Shown here: piece by piece, positions 48,150 through 61,777 of the stretch
Position numbering within the stretch: position 1 is the first letter of the stretch
How the letters are laid out: every line of letters begins with the position of its first letter
From: Acidimicrobiia bacterium
GTDB taxonomy: Bacteria > Actinomycetota > Acidimicrobiia > Acidimicrobiales > AC-14
DNA length: 64,000 nt
Assembly: GCA_023265025.1 (NCBI GenBank)
Contig: JAHFUP010000015.1
Location: forward strand, 1 to 64,000
Direction: 5' to 3'
Notes under the pieces: generated by a model
Seen by the model: the letters and a program-made list of their open reading frames with translations, nothing else
The model's database searches: none
What the model was told of the DNA's origin: nothing
Made by a program: the position numbers and the translations under genes

Positions 48150-49501
48150 TGGCCGACATCACCATGCCGCAACTCGGCGAGACGGTCACCGAGGGCACCA
48201 TCACTCGGTGGTTCAAGAAGGTGGGCGACCAGGTCGCCCAGGACGAGCCGCTCTTCGAGGTCTCCACCGACAAGGTCGACTCCGAGGTGCCGGCCGCCTC
48301 CGCCGGCTACCTCAAGGAGATCCTGGTCGAGGAGGGCGAGACGGTCGACGTGGGCGCCAGGCTGGCCGTGATCGACGACGGGCCGCCGGCGGACAACGGC
48401 ACGGCGGCGCCGGCCAAGGAGGCCGAGCCCGAAGCGAAAGCCACGCCAGAGCCGGAGCCCGAGCAAGAGGCCCCGGAAGCCGAGGTCGACACCGTCGTCC
48501 CCGAGCCCGAGTCTGAGCCGGAGCCTGCATCGCAGCCCGCGCCTGAGCGCCAACAGGCGCCGGCCCCGCCGGCGGCCGCCGCGGGCCGCAAGGTGCTGTC
48601 GCCGCTCGTGCGCCGGCTCCTGACCGAGAACGACCTCGACGCCGACGACATCCAGGGCACGGGGATCGAGGGTCGCGTCACCCGCAATGACGTCATGACC
48701 CACCTCGACAAGGGCGGCGGCCGTACGGCGGCGCCCAAGCCCGCGGCGGCCAGCCGGCCCGCCGCCGCCGCGCCGGCGGCGCGGGCCGGCGCCGACGAGG
48801 TCATCCCGTTCTCGAACATCCGCAAGCGCACCGCCGAGCACATGGTCCGGTCCCAGGCCACGTCGGCGCACGTGCTGACGGCAATCGAGGTCGACTTCGA
48901 GGCCGTCGACCGCGTCCGGCTGGCGCAAAAGGACGCGTTCAAGGCCGACGAAGGCTTCTCCCTCACGTACCTGCCATTCGTCGCCCGGGCCGTGATCGAG
49001 GCCATCCGCGACTTCCCCCACGTCAACGCCTCGGTCGGCGACAACGAGCTCATCGTCCATCGTGCTGTCCACCTGGGCTTCGCCGTCGACATCAACTTCC
49101 AGGGCCTAATCGTGCCGGTCGTCCATGACGCCGACGGCAAGCGGATGCGCGCCATCGCCCGCGAGCTCGCCGACCTCGCCGCCCGGGCTCGGAACAAGAA
49201 GCTCAACGCGGACGAGATCTCGGGGAGCACGTTCACCATCACCAACCCCGGCGGGTTCGGGACGTTCATCACCGCGCCGGTCATCAACCAGCCCCAGGTG
49301 GCCATCCTGTCCACCGACGGCGTCAAGAAGCGGCCCGTCGTGGTCGAGCTTGCCGACGGGAGCGACGCCATCGCCATCCACCCGGTCGGCCTGCTGGCCC
49401 TGAGCTTCGACCACCGGGCCTTCGACGGCGCCTACGCGTCGGCGTTCCTCGCCCGCTGCCGCGAGATCATCGAGACCCGGGACTGGTCCCAGGAGCTGTG
49501 A
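48149..49501 (+). CDS. Dihydrolipoamide acyltransferase, E2 of a 2-oxoacid dehydrogenase (450 aa)
   Basis: One lipoyl domain (1-77) with lipoyl-Lys 42 in EVSTDKVDSEVPAASAG. A Glu/Pro-rich linker follows (about 80-145), then a peripheral-subunit-binding domain (about 148-188, KVLSPLVRRLLTENDLDADD). After an Ala/Pro linker comes the catalytic domain (about 215-450), with active-site His 422 and Asp 426 in LSFDHRAFDGAYAS. With aceE and lpdA it can form a PDH complex; whether it also serves 2-oxoglutarate dehydrogenase, as in mycobacteria, cannot be decided. Only one lipoyl domain, while many actinobacterial E2s have two or three. Confidence 0.93.
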   Translation: MADITMPQLGETVTEGTITRWFKKVGDQVAQDEPLFEVSTDKVDSEVPAASAGYLKEILVEEGETVDVGARLAVIDDGPPADNGTAAPAKEAEPEAKATPEPEPEQEAPEAEVDTVVPEPESEPEPASQPAPERQQAPAPPAAAAGRKVLSPLVRRLLTENDLDADDIQGTGIEGRVTRNDVMTHLDKGGGRTAAPKPAAASRPAAAAPAARAGADEVIPFSNIRKRTAEHMVRSQATSAHVLTAIEVDFEAVDRVRLAQKDAFKADEGFSLTYLPFVARAVIEAIRDFPHVNASVGDNELIVHRAVHLGFAVDINFQGLIVPVVHDADGKRMRAIARELADLAARARNKKLNADEISGSTFTITNPGGFGTFITAPVINQPQVAILSTDGVKKRPVVVELADGSDAIAIHPVGLLALSFDHRAFDGAYASAFLARCREIIETRDWSQEL

Positions 49502-51087
49502 CCCGCCTCCGCCCACTGGGCGGCACAGCGGCGCCGCTGCGGGCCCGGTGGCTCGGTCGGGTGCGCTTCGGCGACGCCCACGCCCTGCAGCGGGCCCTCT
49601 TCCGGGGCACCACCAACTCCTACCTCCTCCTTCTGGAGCACCACCCCGTCTACACGGTGGGGCTCCGGGGCGCCGGCGACAACCTGCGGGTGCCGGCGGC
49701 CGACCTCGGTGCCGAGCTGATCGCCACCGACAGGGGTGGCGAGGTCACCTGGCACGGGCCGGGGCAGCTGGTCGGCTACCCGATCCTGTCGACGACGGAC
49801 TCCCCCAAGGAGCACGTGCGCTCGGTCGAGCAGCTGGTAATCGACGTCTGCGCCGGCTTGGGCCTGCCCGGCCTCGGCCGAGTCGAGGGCTCCCCCGGCG
49901 TCTGGGTGGACGCGGAGGGGCCGGCGCCCCGGAAGATCTGCGCCATCGGCGTCCGCCGGTCGCGGGGCCGGACGATGCACGGCTTCGCCCTCAACGTCGA
50001 CCCCGACCTGTCGTGGTTCGACAGGATCATCCCCTGCGGAATCGCCGGCAAGGGCGTGACGTCGTTGGCCGCCGAGGGGATCGGCGCCGGCATGCGCGAG
50101 GTCGTCGACGCTGTCATGGAGGCCGCCAGCGAGCGGTGGGGCGAGGCCGGCGTGGAACGGGTGGACGTCTCGTGGGAACGCGAGGACCCGGTCGGGATGC
50201 CGGTGGCCACCCGCAAGCCCGAGTGGCTGCGGGTCAAGGTCGACCTCGGCCCGGCCTACCGCGACGTCAAGCGGACCATGCGCAGCCTCAAGCTGGTCAC
50301 GGTGTGCGAGGAGGCCGGCTGCCCCAACATCTACGAGTGCTGGCGGGACGGCACCGCCACCTTCATGATCAACGGCGAGCAGTGCACCCGGGCGTGCGGG
50401 TTCTGCCAGGTCGACACCAGTAAGCCCATGCCCGTCGACCCCGCCGAGCCGGAGCGGCTGGCCGAGGCGGTGGCCGACATGGGACTGGCGTATGCGGTCA
50501 TCACCGCGGTCGCCCGCGACGACCTCCCCGACGGCGGAGCGGCCGGGTTCGCCGAGGCGATCCGCGCCGTCCGCGCCAGGTGCCCGGGGACCGCGGTCGA
50601 GGTCCTCATCCCGGACTGCAAGGGCAGACCAGAGGCGTTGGCCACCATCTTCGACGCCCGGCCCGACGTCCTCAACCACAACCTGGAGACCGTCGCCCGC
50701 CTGCAGCGCCACGTGCGGCCCTCCGCCTCCTACGCCCGCAGCCTCTCGGTGCTGGCCCGCGCCGCGGCCGCCGGCCTGGTCACCAAATCGGGCCTCATCC
50801 TCGGCCTGGGCGAGACGGAGGGCGAGGTCCTGGCCGCCATGGCCGACCTCCAGCGGGTGGGCGTGTCGATCCTCACCCTCGGCCAGTACCTCCGGCCCTC
50901 CGCCGGCCACCTGCCGGTGGACCGGTGGTGGACGCCGGCGGAGTTCGACCGGCTGGCCGAAGCCGGCCGTTCACTCGGCTTCGCCCACGTCGAGGCGTCG
51001 CCGCTGACCCGCTCCAGCTACCACGCCCGCCAGGCGGCGAGCGCGGTAGCCGGCGCCCTCGATCTGGCTGCACTGACGTGCCCATAG
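49498..51087 (+). CDS. Fused octanoyltransferase LipB and lipoyl synthase LipA (529 aa)
   Basis: GTG at 49498 overlaps the E2 stop as GTGA. LipB half (about 1-228): HHPVYTVGLRG, RGGEVTWHGPGQLVGYPI (79-96), catalytic Lys 146 in PRKICAIGVR and Cys 180 in IIPCGIAGKGVTSL. LipA half (about 235-529): auxiliary cluster Cys 270/275/281 in CEEAGCPNIYEC, radical SAM Cys 296/300/303 in CTRACGFC, VDPAEPERLAEAV, LNHNLETV, and the C-terminal Ser ligand in TRSSYHA. All residues for both activities are present in one open frame, so octanoyl transfer and sulfur insertion onto E2 would occur on one polypeptide. Confidence 0.95.
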   Translation: MTRLRPLGGTAAPLRARWLGRVRFGDAHALQRALFRGTTNSYLLLLEHHPVYTVGLRGAGDNLRVPAADLGAELIATDRGGEVTWHGPGQLVGYPILSTTDSPKEHVRSVEQLVIDVCAGLGLPGLGRVEGSPGVWVDAEGPAPRKICAIGVRRSRGRTMHGFALNVDPDLSWFDRIIPCGIAGKGVTSLAAEGIGAGMREVVDAVMEAASERWGEAGVERVDVSWEREDPVGMPVATRKPEWLRVKVDLGPAYRDVKRTMRSLKLVTVCEEAGCPNIYECWRDGTATFMINGEQCTRACGFCQVDTSKPMPVDPAEPERLAEAVADMGLAYAVITAVARDDLPDGGAAGFAEAIRAVRARCPGTAVEVLIPDCKGRPEALATIFDARPDVLNHNLETVARLQRHVRPSASYARSLSVLARAAAAGLVTKSGLILGLGETEGEVLAAMADLQRVGVSILTLGQYLRPSAGHLPVDRWWTPAEFDRLAEAGRSLGFAHVEASPLTRSSYHARQAASAVAGALDLAALTCP

Positions 51088-53993: not shown

Positions 53994-54854
53994 GTGATCC
54001 GCCTCGACGCTGCGACGGTCCTCTTGCAGTGGGCGACGGGCGGGTTGCTGTTCTTGTGGGTCACCACCCGCCGGCGAGAGGTGGGCATCGGCTACGGCTG
54101 GCTGCTGCGGGGCGTGTACGGGATCCTGGCCCTCGGGGCGTTCGCGGCCGGCGTGGTGGTCGACCCGGTAGGTGTCCGGGACGCCTGCTCGTTGGGCGTG
54201 GGGGCGGCCTCGGCCGTGGCCCTGACGTCCTCGATCGTGCGCCGCAAGGCCGGCGTGGCCGGCGAGCGGGCCCGGAGGGAGCGCAAGGCCACGCGGGTGG
54301 CGGCGATGGCCGGAAAGGTCGCCCCTGAGGTCGCCGCCGGCCCCGACACCGGCCCCGTCCGTGAGTTCCCGCCGGCGCTCGACATCGTGGCCCCGGCCAT
54401 CGGCCTGGTCGGGCTGGTGGCGGCCGGGATGGCCGCCGGCGGCCCGGACGCCCTGGCCGTGGCCCGCACCCTCGCCGGCGCGCTGTTCCTCGGGGCGGTC
54501 TCCGACGCCATGCTCCTGGGCCACTGGTATCTCGTCCAGCCGGGCCTCGGCCGGGGCCCGCTCCTCGAGCTCAATCGCTGGCTGGCCCTCACCTGGCCGC
54601 TGGAGGTCGGACTGCTCCTCTGGCCGACCGGGATGCTGTCGGTGCTGTCGGGCTCGGTCGACGACGGCTGGGACGGCACCCTCGGCTGGTTCTGGGTGGC
54701 GTGCGCGGTGACCACGCTCGTCCTGACGGCCGTCACCAAGGCCGCCCTGAAGGAGAAGGCGTACTCCGCCGTCATGGCCGCCACCGGCCTGCTCTACCTG
54801 GCCATCCTCACCGCCTTCGGCACCGACCTGGTGGCCCGCGCCATCCTGGCCTGA
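53994..54854 (+). CDS. Polytopic membrane protein of unknown function (286 aa)
   Basis: GTG at 53994. About eight hydrophobic segments in two groups of three and five (TVLLQWATGGLLFLWVTTRR; LDIVAPAIGLVGLVAAGMAA; VACAVTTLVLTAVTKAALKE; VMAATGLLYLAILTAFGTDL). They are separated by a basic cytoplasmic loop (RARRERKATRVAAMAGK). The motif LGHWYLVQPGLGRGPL with conserved His/Trp looks like a ligand or heme-binding turn, but that is only a resemblance. Confidence 0.7.
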   Translation: MIRLDAATVLLQWATGGLLFLWVTTRRREVGIGYGWLLRGVYGILALGAFAAGVVVDPVGVRDACSLGVGAASAVALTSSIVRRKAGVAGERARRERKATRVAAMAGKVAPEVAAGPDTGPVREFPPALDIVAPAIGLVGLVAAGMAAGGPDALAVARTLAGALFLGAVSDAMLLGHWYLVQPGLGRGPLLELNRWLALTWPLEVGLLLWPTGMLSVLSGSVDDGWDGTLGWFWVACAVTTLVLTAVTKAALKEKAYSAVMAATGLLYLAILTAFGTDLVARAILA

Positions 54855-54855
54855 T

Positions 54856-56094
54856 TCAGGGGCCGAACGTGACCGGCAACCAGGTCCGGCCGGAGTCGGT
54901 GGTCAGGAGCAGGCGCCCGTCACCCGCCGGCCCGCGGGTCACCACAAACCCACGGGCGGCGTCGGTGAAGGTCAGGTCATCGAGCGGGGTGCCTCCCCCC
55001 AGCTCGGTGTAGACGGTGGCCCAGGTCTGGCCCCCGTCGTCGGTCCGGTACAGCCACGATGCGCCACTGACGGCAGCGACGACGATCGTCGTGCGGGAAG
55101 CGGCGGCGACGCCGCGGACTGACCCCCCGGAAGGGGGTGCGCCTGCTGCCGTCCAGGTCCGCCCTCCGTCGGACGAGCGGACGAGCGTTTTGAAGGACGA
55201 TCCGGCCGCGGCGCCATGGGTGCATACCGCAACGATGTCGCTGCCGGCGCCGGCCAGTTCGACGCCCGCCTGTGGGCACGGCAGGCCCCGCCGTTCGAGC
55301 CCGGCTGGGGAGATGGCCAACAGGACGCCGTCGGCGCCGGCGATGTAGGCGATGGGGCCCTGCAGCACGACGCCGGTGCCGAACATCGGCTCGGAGCCTG
55401 CTGACCGCCAGTCGTCGGTGCCGACCGTGCTGGTGTACACGTAGGAGGCAGTGGAGCGGGCCACGGCCCAGACCCGTCCGGCGCCAGCCTCCAGGCTCGA
55501 GACCTCGCCGGGCGGTGTGTCCAGATGGCGCCACGTCGCCCCGCCGTCGTGGGTGGCCCAGACGCCGATGGCGTTGATCCCGTAGATCCATCCGTTTCTT
55601 TCGTCGGCGAAGCGCACTCCCGTGATCCCATCGACGCCGGCCGGCGGAGCAGGGATGCCCGCCCAGCTCGATCCGCCGTCGGTGGTGCGGATCAGCGCCG
55701 GGCAGCGCCGGTCGGCGCACGGTGCGGTCCCCAGCACCCAACCCTGACGAGTCGACACCCATGTCACCGAGACCGGTTGGAACCCCGCCGGCACCGGGCC
55801 GGAGCTCGGGGCCAGTGCCGGCGCCGGCCGGGCCGACGGCGACTCGGGGACCGTCGTCGCCGGCGTCCCGGCGGTGCGGACCTCCTGAGGCCGGTCGGAG
55901 CCCCCACGGGTCGAGACGAGCACGGCTGCGACGACGACGACAACGGCCCCAACGACAGACGTGACGCCGGCCCGCCGACGCCGCCGCGCGGGCGGGACGA
56001 AGCGGCCGGCGACGCGTGACCACTCCGGTTGGGACGGAACCACGGCGTCGGCTCGGCGGTGGAGCGCGTCGCGCAGCCGGTCGTCGACCGTCAC
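54856..56094 (-). CDS. Membrane-anchored Asp-box propeller protein coupled to an ECF sigma factor (412 aa)
   Basis: GTG at 56094 overlaps the sigma-factor stop (GTGA). Short cytoplasmic part of about 47 residues (DDRLRDALHRRADAVVPSQP), one helix (GAVVVVVAAVLVST, about 50-63), then an outward propeller. Its Asp-box blades are RTTDGGSSWAGI, THDGGATWRHL, SSDGGRTWTAA, RTDDGGQTWAT and TTDSGRTWLPV. The position is that of an anti-sigma factor, so the cytoplasmic stub may bind the sigma factor. It lacks a zinc-binding HxxxCxxC motif. Confidence 0.8.
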   Translation of the reverse strand: MTVDDRLRDALHRRADAVVPSQPEWSRVAGRFVPPARRRRRAGVTSVVGAVVVVVAAVLVSTRGGSDRPQEVRTAGTPATTVPESPSARPAPALAPSSGPVPAGFQPVSVTWVSTRQGWVLGTAPCADRRCPALIRTTDGGSSWAGIPAPPAGVDGITGVRFADERNGWIYGINAIGVWATHDGGATWRHLDTPPGEVSSLEAGAGRVWAVARSTASYVYTSTVGTDDWRSAGSEPMFGTGVVLQGPIAYIAGADGVLLAISPAGLERRGLPCPQAGVELAGAGSDIVAVCTHGAAAGSSFKTLVRSSDGGRTWTAAGAPPSGGSVRGVAAASRTTIVVAAVSGASWLYRTDDGGQTWATVYTELGGGTPLDDLTFTDAARGFVVTRGPAGDGRLLLTTDSGRTWLPVTFGP

Positions 56095-56561
56095 GCCTCC
56101 ACCACCTTCCGAAGGCGGGCCAGGCCGCGGGAGATCAGCGACTTGACGGTGCCCGGCCGACAACCGAGGACGACGGCGATGTCGGCCTCGGGAAGATCGT
56201 CGTAGTAACGTAGGACCAGCGCGGCCCGCTGGCGGGCCGGGAGCCCGGCCAGGGCGTCCAGGATCTCGTCGGCCCCCAGCTCGACGGACGCCGGCCGGTC
56301 AGTCCGGAGCAGCGCCCGTTCCAGCGTCCGCCGTCGGCCAGCGGACCGGCACGCGTTCACGACCGACCGGCGCAGGTAGGCGGCCGGGTCGTCGATACGG
56401 TCGAACCGGGGATACAGCCGTACGAAGCAGTCCTGCACCACCTCCTCGGCGGTGTCCTGGGAGTCGACGAGCAGCGTGGCCAGGCGCACCATGGCCGCGT
56501 ACCGGTCCCGGTGCAGTGCGGCCAAGGTCGCCGGTCGGGGCTCCACCGCAACAGACTGCAC
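56091..56561 (-). CDS. ECF sigma factor, SigE-like (156 aa)
   Basis: GTG at 56561 (a second GTG at 56546 is possible). Region 2: RDRYAAMVRLATLLVDSQDT, AEEVVQDCFVRLYPRFDRID, DDPAAYLRRSVVNACRS. Region 4: LPARQRAALVLRYYDDLPEA, then DIAVVLGCRPGTVKSLISRG. It should direct RNA polymerase to stress or envelope promoters. Coupled to the downstream membrane Asp-box protein. Oriented away from the TetR gene. Confidence 0.92.
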   Translation of the reverse strand: MQSVAVEPRPATLAALHRDRYAAMVRLATLLVDSQDTAEEVVQDCFVRLYPRFDRIDDPAAYLRRSVVNACRSAGRRRTLERALLRTDRPASVELGADEILDALAGLPARQRAALVLRYYDDLPEADIAVVLGCRPGTVKSLISRGLARLRKVVEA

Positions 56562-56607
56562 ACATCAAGGACGCAGAGCCGGCCCGGAAGGTTGCACCCG
56601 AAACTCC

Positions 56608-60610: not shown

Positions 60611-61777
60611 GTGCGAGCGAGGATCCGGACAGCCGTCGCCACCGTGGTGCTGATCATGCTTGCCGCGTGCGGTGGCGGCGGCGACAGCGACGGCGGCCCC
60701 AAGGAGACCGCCACCGGCACCTGGCAGGACATGGCGCCGGCCCCGATCGCGGCTCGGAGCCCGGCGGCGACCGTATGGACCGGCAAGGAGATGGTCGTCT
60801 GGGGTGGCGGGAACTGCAAGGCCAACCCGTGCCAGTTCGACAACGTCGAGCCCCTCAACGACGGCGGCGCCTACAACCCGTCATCCGACACCTGGCGCAA
60901 GATCGCCCCGAGCCCCCTCGCGGCCCGAACGGGAACCGTCGCGGAATGGACCGGGAAGGAGGTGCTGCTGTGGGGCGGCGGCGTCGGCACGACCCAGGCC
61001 TACGGCGACGGGGCCGCCTACGACCCCGCCGCCGATACCTGGCGCCTCCTGCCGCCGTCCCCGCTCGGCGCCCGCCGGACCGCCGGCGTGTGGACTGGCA
61101 AGGAGCTGGTCATGTGGGGCGGGCGCAACATCGTCGACACGAAGTACTTCGCCGAGGGCGCCGCCTACGACCCGGTCACGGACCGGTGGCGGATGCTGCC
61201 CTCCGTGAACCTCGCCGCCCGCGACCGCATCGGCATCGAGTGGACCGGCAAGGAGGTCGTCGTCTGGGGCGGCGGCACCAGCAACGAGGCGTTCGGCGAT
61301 GGGGCGGCGTACGACCCGGTCGCCGACCGGTGGCGGCCCGTGTCGCCCTCACCGTTGGCCGCCCGCTTCGTCGGTGCCCGCTGGACAGGCAAGGAGCTGC
61401 TGCTGTGGGGCGGCGAGGACTGGGCCCAGGTGTTCAACGACGGGGCCGCCTACGACCCCGCCGCCGACACCTGGCGGCAACTGCCGGCCACATCGCTCAG
61501 CGGGCGGGTGGGGATCGCCCAGGTGTGGACAGGGAAGGAGCTGCTGATCTGGGGCGGCACACCCGGCACCTTCAACAACTACCTCGCCGACGGGGCCGCC
61601 TACGACCCCGCGAGCAACCGGTGGCGGCCGATCCCCACCTGGACAGGGCGCTTCGTGGCGTCCGACGTCTGGACCGGCCGGGAGCTGATCGTGTGGGGCG
61701 GGATCGTGCCGACGGGCGCGCCCGGCCGCACCGTGGAGATCACCAGCGTCGCCGACGGCCGGCGCTACGTGCCGTAA
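60611..61777 (+). CDS. Kelch-like beta-propeller lipoprotein (388 aa)
   Basis: GTG at 60611. Lipobox LIMLAACGG (Cys about 20). Six to seven Kelch-type repeats each carry a core such as VWTGKEMVVWGG and GAAYDPAADTWR: TWQDMAPAP, GAYNPSSDTWRKI, AAYDPAADTWRLL, AAYDPVTDRWRML, AAYDPVADRWRPV, AAYDPAADTWRQL and AAYDPASNRWRPI. A surface-anchored propeller, probably binding polymer or protein; no enzymatic residues recognised. The pseudoprotease gene follows after 7 bp. Confidence 0.85.
   Translation: MRARIRTAVATVVLIMLAACGGGGDSDGGPKETATGTWQDMAPAPIAARSPAATVWTGKEMVVWGGGNCKANPCQFDNVEPLNDGGAYNPSSDTWRKIAPSPLAARTGTVAEWTGKEVLLWGGGVGTTQAYGDGAAYDPAADTWRLLPPSPLGARRTAGVWTGKELVMWGGRNIVDTKYFAEGAAYDPVTDRWRMLPSVNLAARDRIGIEWTGKEVVVWGGGTSNEAFGDGAAYDPVADRWRPVSPSPLAARFVGARWTGKELLLWGGEDWAQVFNDGAAYDPAADTWRQLPATSLSGRVGIAQVWTGKELLIWGGTPGTFNNYLADGAAYDPASNRWRPIPTWTGRFVASDVWTGRELIVWGGIVPTGAPGRTVEITSVADGRRYVP

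Follow-up and report, generated by a model that had tools for sequence, protein, structure and literature searches.

A putative membrane-anchored anti-sigma factor with an Asp-box propeller ectodomain, encoded in overlap with an ECF sigma factor gene of an Acidimicrobiia bacterium

Introduction

What is the function of a membrane-bound propeller protein whose gene overlaps that of an ECF sigma factor? The question is raised by a locus in a soil actinobacterium of the class Acidimicrobiia, represented by a 5.45 Mb MAG. The locus lies in a window (the whole stretch of DNA that was analysed) of 64,000 nucleotides. The original prediction took the pair for a sensor/anti-sigma design, in which an extracellular propeller controls the sigma factor. 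In this study, the two proteins, their neighborhood and their relatives in the order and in other phyla were analyzed computationally.

Sigma factor gene and local setting

The sigma factor gene (56091..56561, minus strand, GTG start) was defined from its ORF and from Pfam and NCBIfam profiles, and encodes a SigE-like ECF sigma factor of 156 aa. Sigma70_r2 and Sigma70_r4_2 both score above their Pfam cut-offs, and the protein has sigma2 and sigma4 as its sole sigma regions, as is characteristic of ECF sigma factors. The match to the SigE-fam_strep profile TIGR02983 (E 1.2e-40, 139.1 bits) narrowly misses the curated cut-off of 141.55; judged from its sequence, the protein is closely related to the SigE family, with a score just below membership. 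The second gene (54856..56094, minus strand, GTG start) encodes a membrane protein of 412 aa, composed of a stub, one transmembrane (TM) segment and an Asp-box propeller. The overlap by GTGA claimed for the two genes was found as described, with ORFs 56561-56091 and 56094-54856 sharing these four bases (56091..56094, minus strand).

The sigma gene is preceded, at a distance of 46 bp, by a TetR-type regulator gene (57237-56608, minus strand) in the same orientation. The gap between them holds an ECF-type promoter-like site, GCAACC-N16-CGTC (56570..56595, minus strand), directly before the GTG start of the sigma gene. The pattern AACC-N15-17-CGTC, taken first from the window, was found upstream at 37 of 125 related loci, several of which are close relatives so that the counts are not independent; 1.6 were expected from shuffles (maximum 4), and the reverse strand gave 2. 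Five variants of the pattern were tried, one of them giving 1/125. Across the own genome 91 matches were obtained versus 37 in the backward control, most of them indistinguishable from chance.

On the other side, a gene for a hydrophobic protein of 286 residues (53994-54854, plus strand), convergent with the propeller gene, has no match in Pfam or NCBIfam. A second secreted propeller, a Kelch-type protein with a lipobox-like start, is encoded some 4 kb away from that regulator gene (60611-61777, plus strand). Further away, an ORF of 529 residues (49498-51087, plus strand) appears by eye from its translation to consist of a LipB-like octanoyltransferase part followed by a LipA-like lipoyl synthase part. 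A separate anti-sigma gene had been named in advance as the finding that would speak against the design; none, of zinc-finger or other type, was recognisable among the neighbouring genes scanned at the locus.

Stub, membrane segment and topology

Hydropathy analysis of the 412-residue protein reveals a single strong membrane segment starting at about residue 42. The one membrane helix of the original prediction is thus retained, and its 47-residue stub is shortened to about 41 residues. A second hydropathy window, at 243, falls within the propeller and is barely over a lowered threshold of 1.4. The net charge is +7 in the 15 residues preceding the TM segment and +1 after it, and on this basis the protein is predicted to be oriented N-in. 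The stub (residues 1-41; 55972..56094, minus strand) is predicted to be cytoplasmic. An N-terminal segment followed by one TM segment in N-in orientation is the layout of membrane-anchored ECF anti-sigma factors, and the protein is predicted to have it; its gene also adjoins the sigma gene, by the GTGA overlap, as is expected of such factors. No recognised anti-sigma or zinc-finger domain was matched by Pfam or NCBIfam in this protein.

An AlphaFold2 model built with 11 sequences has a mean pLDDT of 79. A helix is predicted at residues 3-18, residues 20-94 are below a pLDDT of 50, and the propeller is modelled confidently, mostly above 85 across about residues 95-410.

The Asp-box propeller

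The propeller domain extends from about residue 104 to the C-terminus (54856..55785, minus strand). Five Asp boxes were read, at 137 (TTDGGSSW), 181 (THDGGATW), 307 (SSDGGRTW), 351 (TDDGGQTW) and 398 (TTDSGRTW), and PSII_BNR and BNR are both above the Pfam cut-off. Together with the charge pattern and the modelled fold, these boxes agree with the outward five-box propeller first proposed, its placement and fold being predictions. Foldseek ranks Ycf48 structures highest, with TM-scores of 0.63-0.69 by target; the VIA-align rows contain general propellers with tied Z, and Ycf48 is not listed among them. On the model, the ectodomain is best described as a Ycf48-like Asp-box propeller. Identity as the Ycf48 photosystem II assembly factor itself was rejected, as the PRK13684 equivalog scores 41.2 bits against the 326 needed.

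In the first set of related propellers, all seven that adjoin a sigma gene have a stub and a TM segment, and ten located away from sigma genes bear a lipobox or signal peptide, not a stub. The closest propellers to the window protein (L013-L015) are standalone lipoproteins. In a tree of 18 propellers the N-terminal form switches five times, three of these switches being forced by well-supported branches. One further protein (L024, 957-2640) has a stub-like N-terminus and a TM segment followed by an Ig-like part and a propeller; no sigma gene was detectable upstream of its stub-like start, and it is possibly a decayed sigma/propeller pair.

Distribution of the gene pair

A total of 125 distinct sigma genes were collected from a sigma-factor search of 397 genomes of the order, from own-genome paralogues and from loci reached via the propeller. 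An ORF with stub and TM segment follows the sigma gene at 118 of the 125 loci, a count biased upward by an ORF choice that favoured TM-containing ORFs. The overlap is exactly 4 bp, as in the window, at 101/125, a count less affected by this choice. At four loci (L046, L047, L099, L116) no ORF is listed after the sigma gene, and the sigma matches are near a contig end. Behind two of the sigma genes in the own genome, L007 and L011, lies instead a gene whose product resembles, by eye, a zinc-finger anti-sigma factor. The closest own-genome sigma paralogue (57%; L002:35-1498, C60) is paired with a stub-TM protein whose terminal part is SecD/SecDF P1-like, and a stub-TM Kelch protein lies behind another ECF gene of this genome (L003).

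The ectodomains in the order range over BNR, Kelch, TolB, RCC1, SecD-like, LysM and ABC substrate-binding types. Among 110 proteins, Kelch (6), PD40 (5), RCC1 (4), Gmad2 (4), SecDF P1 head (2), FtsX ectodomain (2), LysM (2) and OpuAC (1) were assigned. BNR was found in eight, a number inflated by selection: six of these loci were found via the propeller (L017, L018, L021, L022, L035 and L037), and L022 alone is also in the sigma search listing.

An ECF gene followed by a stub-TM-Asp-box propeller was also found in two Chloroflexi MAGs (L181, spacing -4 bp; L260, +7), Phycicoccus sp. Root101 (L198, -4), an Actinomycetes MAG (L241, -8) and Gorillibacterium timonense (L195, -4). The layout of sigma factor, stub and propeller thus spans Chloroflexi, Bacillota and other Actinomycetota, and the search for the same pair in other genomes, proposed as a check of the design, turned out in its favour both across the order and in other phyla.

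Stub conservation and proposed ectodomain exchange

A helix pattern, acidic-x-L-R-x-x-L-x-A, is present in 95 of 111 N-termini versus 14.1 in shuffles; it was written after the sequences were seen, and all four versions tried are well above shuffles. The net charge in the stub-TM set is +3.8 before the TM segment and -1.1 after it. Matches to the CU044_5270 family (NF038083), all below its cut-off, were obtained for eight proteins of the wider set. In the four matches examined in detail (L002, L005, L008 and L027) the matched part falls in the N-terminal stub/TM region. The window protein has no NF038083 match, and none of the papers searched names the family.

All 12 closest relatives of the window sigma factor within the set are paired with ectodomains without blastp similarity to the window propeller. 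This is what one would expect of an exchangeable ectodomain and of a stub that is the sigma factor's partner. For sigma pairs with 50-60% identity, the ectodomains have no blastp match in 254 of 271 cases. The similarity matrix of the sigma factors correlates with those of the stub (0.459), the TM segment (0.388) and the ectodomain (0.438), all above shuffled pairing. Partner covariation does not single out the stub: the sigma factor tracks it no better than it tracks the ectodomain.

Proposed function and alternatives

From the gene overlap, the topology, the recurrence of the layout and the analogy with the Tt-RpoE1/Tt-TolB pair (PMC3397946), the 412-residue protein is likely to serve the overlapping ECF sigma gene as its membrane-anchored anti-sigma factor. 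The short stub at its N-terminus, which contains a conserved helix, would tether the sigma factor to the membrane. Release would follow a change in the propeller outside the cell, caused by ligand, damage or proteolysis, and the released sigma factor would transcribe its own operon from GCAACC-N16-CGTC, plus further genes. The sensor/anti-sigma design is supported in this way, the contact of stub and sigma factor and the sensing by the propeller being inferred. Speaking against it are L024, whose stub-like N-terminus lies at a locus with no sigma gene detected upstream, the covariation, which fails to favour the stub, and the missing match to any curated anti-sigma profile.

The membrane protein might instead be a target of the sigma factor or a co-transcribed partner, such as a co-induced envelope protein, and not an inhibitor. 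Operons are often shared by co-regulated genes, and the relatives of the propeller also occur as standalone lipoproteins; against this, the stub, the TM segment and the overlap persist while the ectodomains vary widely, and Tt-TolB, laid out in the same way, acts as an inhibitor of its sigma factor (PMC3397946). We regard this explanation as unlikely. Still less probable, to the point of being a marginal candidate, is a stub that recruits the sigma factor to the membrane, or keeps it there, in the role of activator or dual-function regulator and not of plain inhibitor. Its precedent is RskA, for which a dual activator-inhibitor role with SigK is reported (PMC7509140), but the sequence gives no sign of such a role here, and the inhibition by Tt-TolB was seen in vitro (PMC3397946).

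If the anti-sigma reading is extended to the whole set, the chances appear evenly balanced that these loci represent a large, hardly described ECF family. In it, the anti-sigma domain would be a stub of minimal size, about 40 residues, and the extracellular part would be exchanged freely (propellers of Asp-box, Kelch, TolB and RCC1 type, SecD-like, LysM and substrate-binding domains), with one inhibition unit wired to many sensors. Should the stub act as the anti-sigma domain in every case, dozens of membrane proteins of the order that now lack annotation could be read as sensors whose partners are known. It would also become possible to study and use the swapping of outside domains on an unchanged inhibitor, and proteins so far named solely after their propellers would gain a likely role.

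Comparison with known systems

A search of titles and abstracts, with the 2021 ECF reclassification outside its scope, found no Asp-box anti-sigma factor. The Ycf48 structures (PDB 5oj3, 2xbg) share the Asp-box propeller with the window protein; Ycf48 is a photosystem II assembly factor without a link to sigma factors, and the identity is 16-20%.

Three classes of anti-sigma domains are known (PMC7406223, PMC8103513). Compared by features, not sequences, the putative anti-sigma segment of the window protein is short and lacks a zinc finger, as does CnrY of class II. However, two helices of CnrY wrap CnrH, whereas in the stub the first helix alone is confidently predicted.

The closest parallel is Tt-TolB of Thermoanaerobacter tengcongensis, whose gene is downstream of Tt-RpoE1 and which has a TM segment at 39-61 and a TolB-domain ectodomain outside (PMC3397946). 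Its residues 1-39 bind Tt-RpoE1 in yeast two-hybrid, and it inhibits Tt-RpoE1 transcription in vitro, as established by yeast two-hybrid, EMSA and in vitro transcription; Tt-RpoE1 is autoregulated from the promoter tGTTAC-N16-CGTC (PMC3397946). Both pairs have the anti-sigma gene (putative in the window) directly after the ECF gene, a similar stub length and TM position, a large ectodomain, and a CGTC -10 element with an N16 spacer, which in the window belongs to the promoter-like site. Tt-TolB differs in its TolB-type ectodomain, in its size of 645 residues, in its Firmicutes host and in genes 2 bp apart without overlap (PMC3397946). The scheme is thus known as a kind from Tt-TolB, and what is new is the propeller of Asp-box type and the range over which ectodomains are exchanged.
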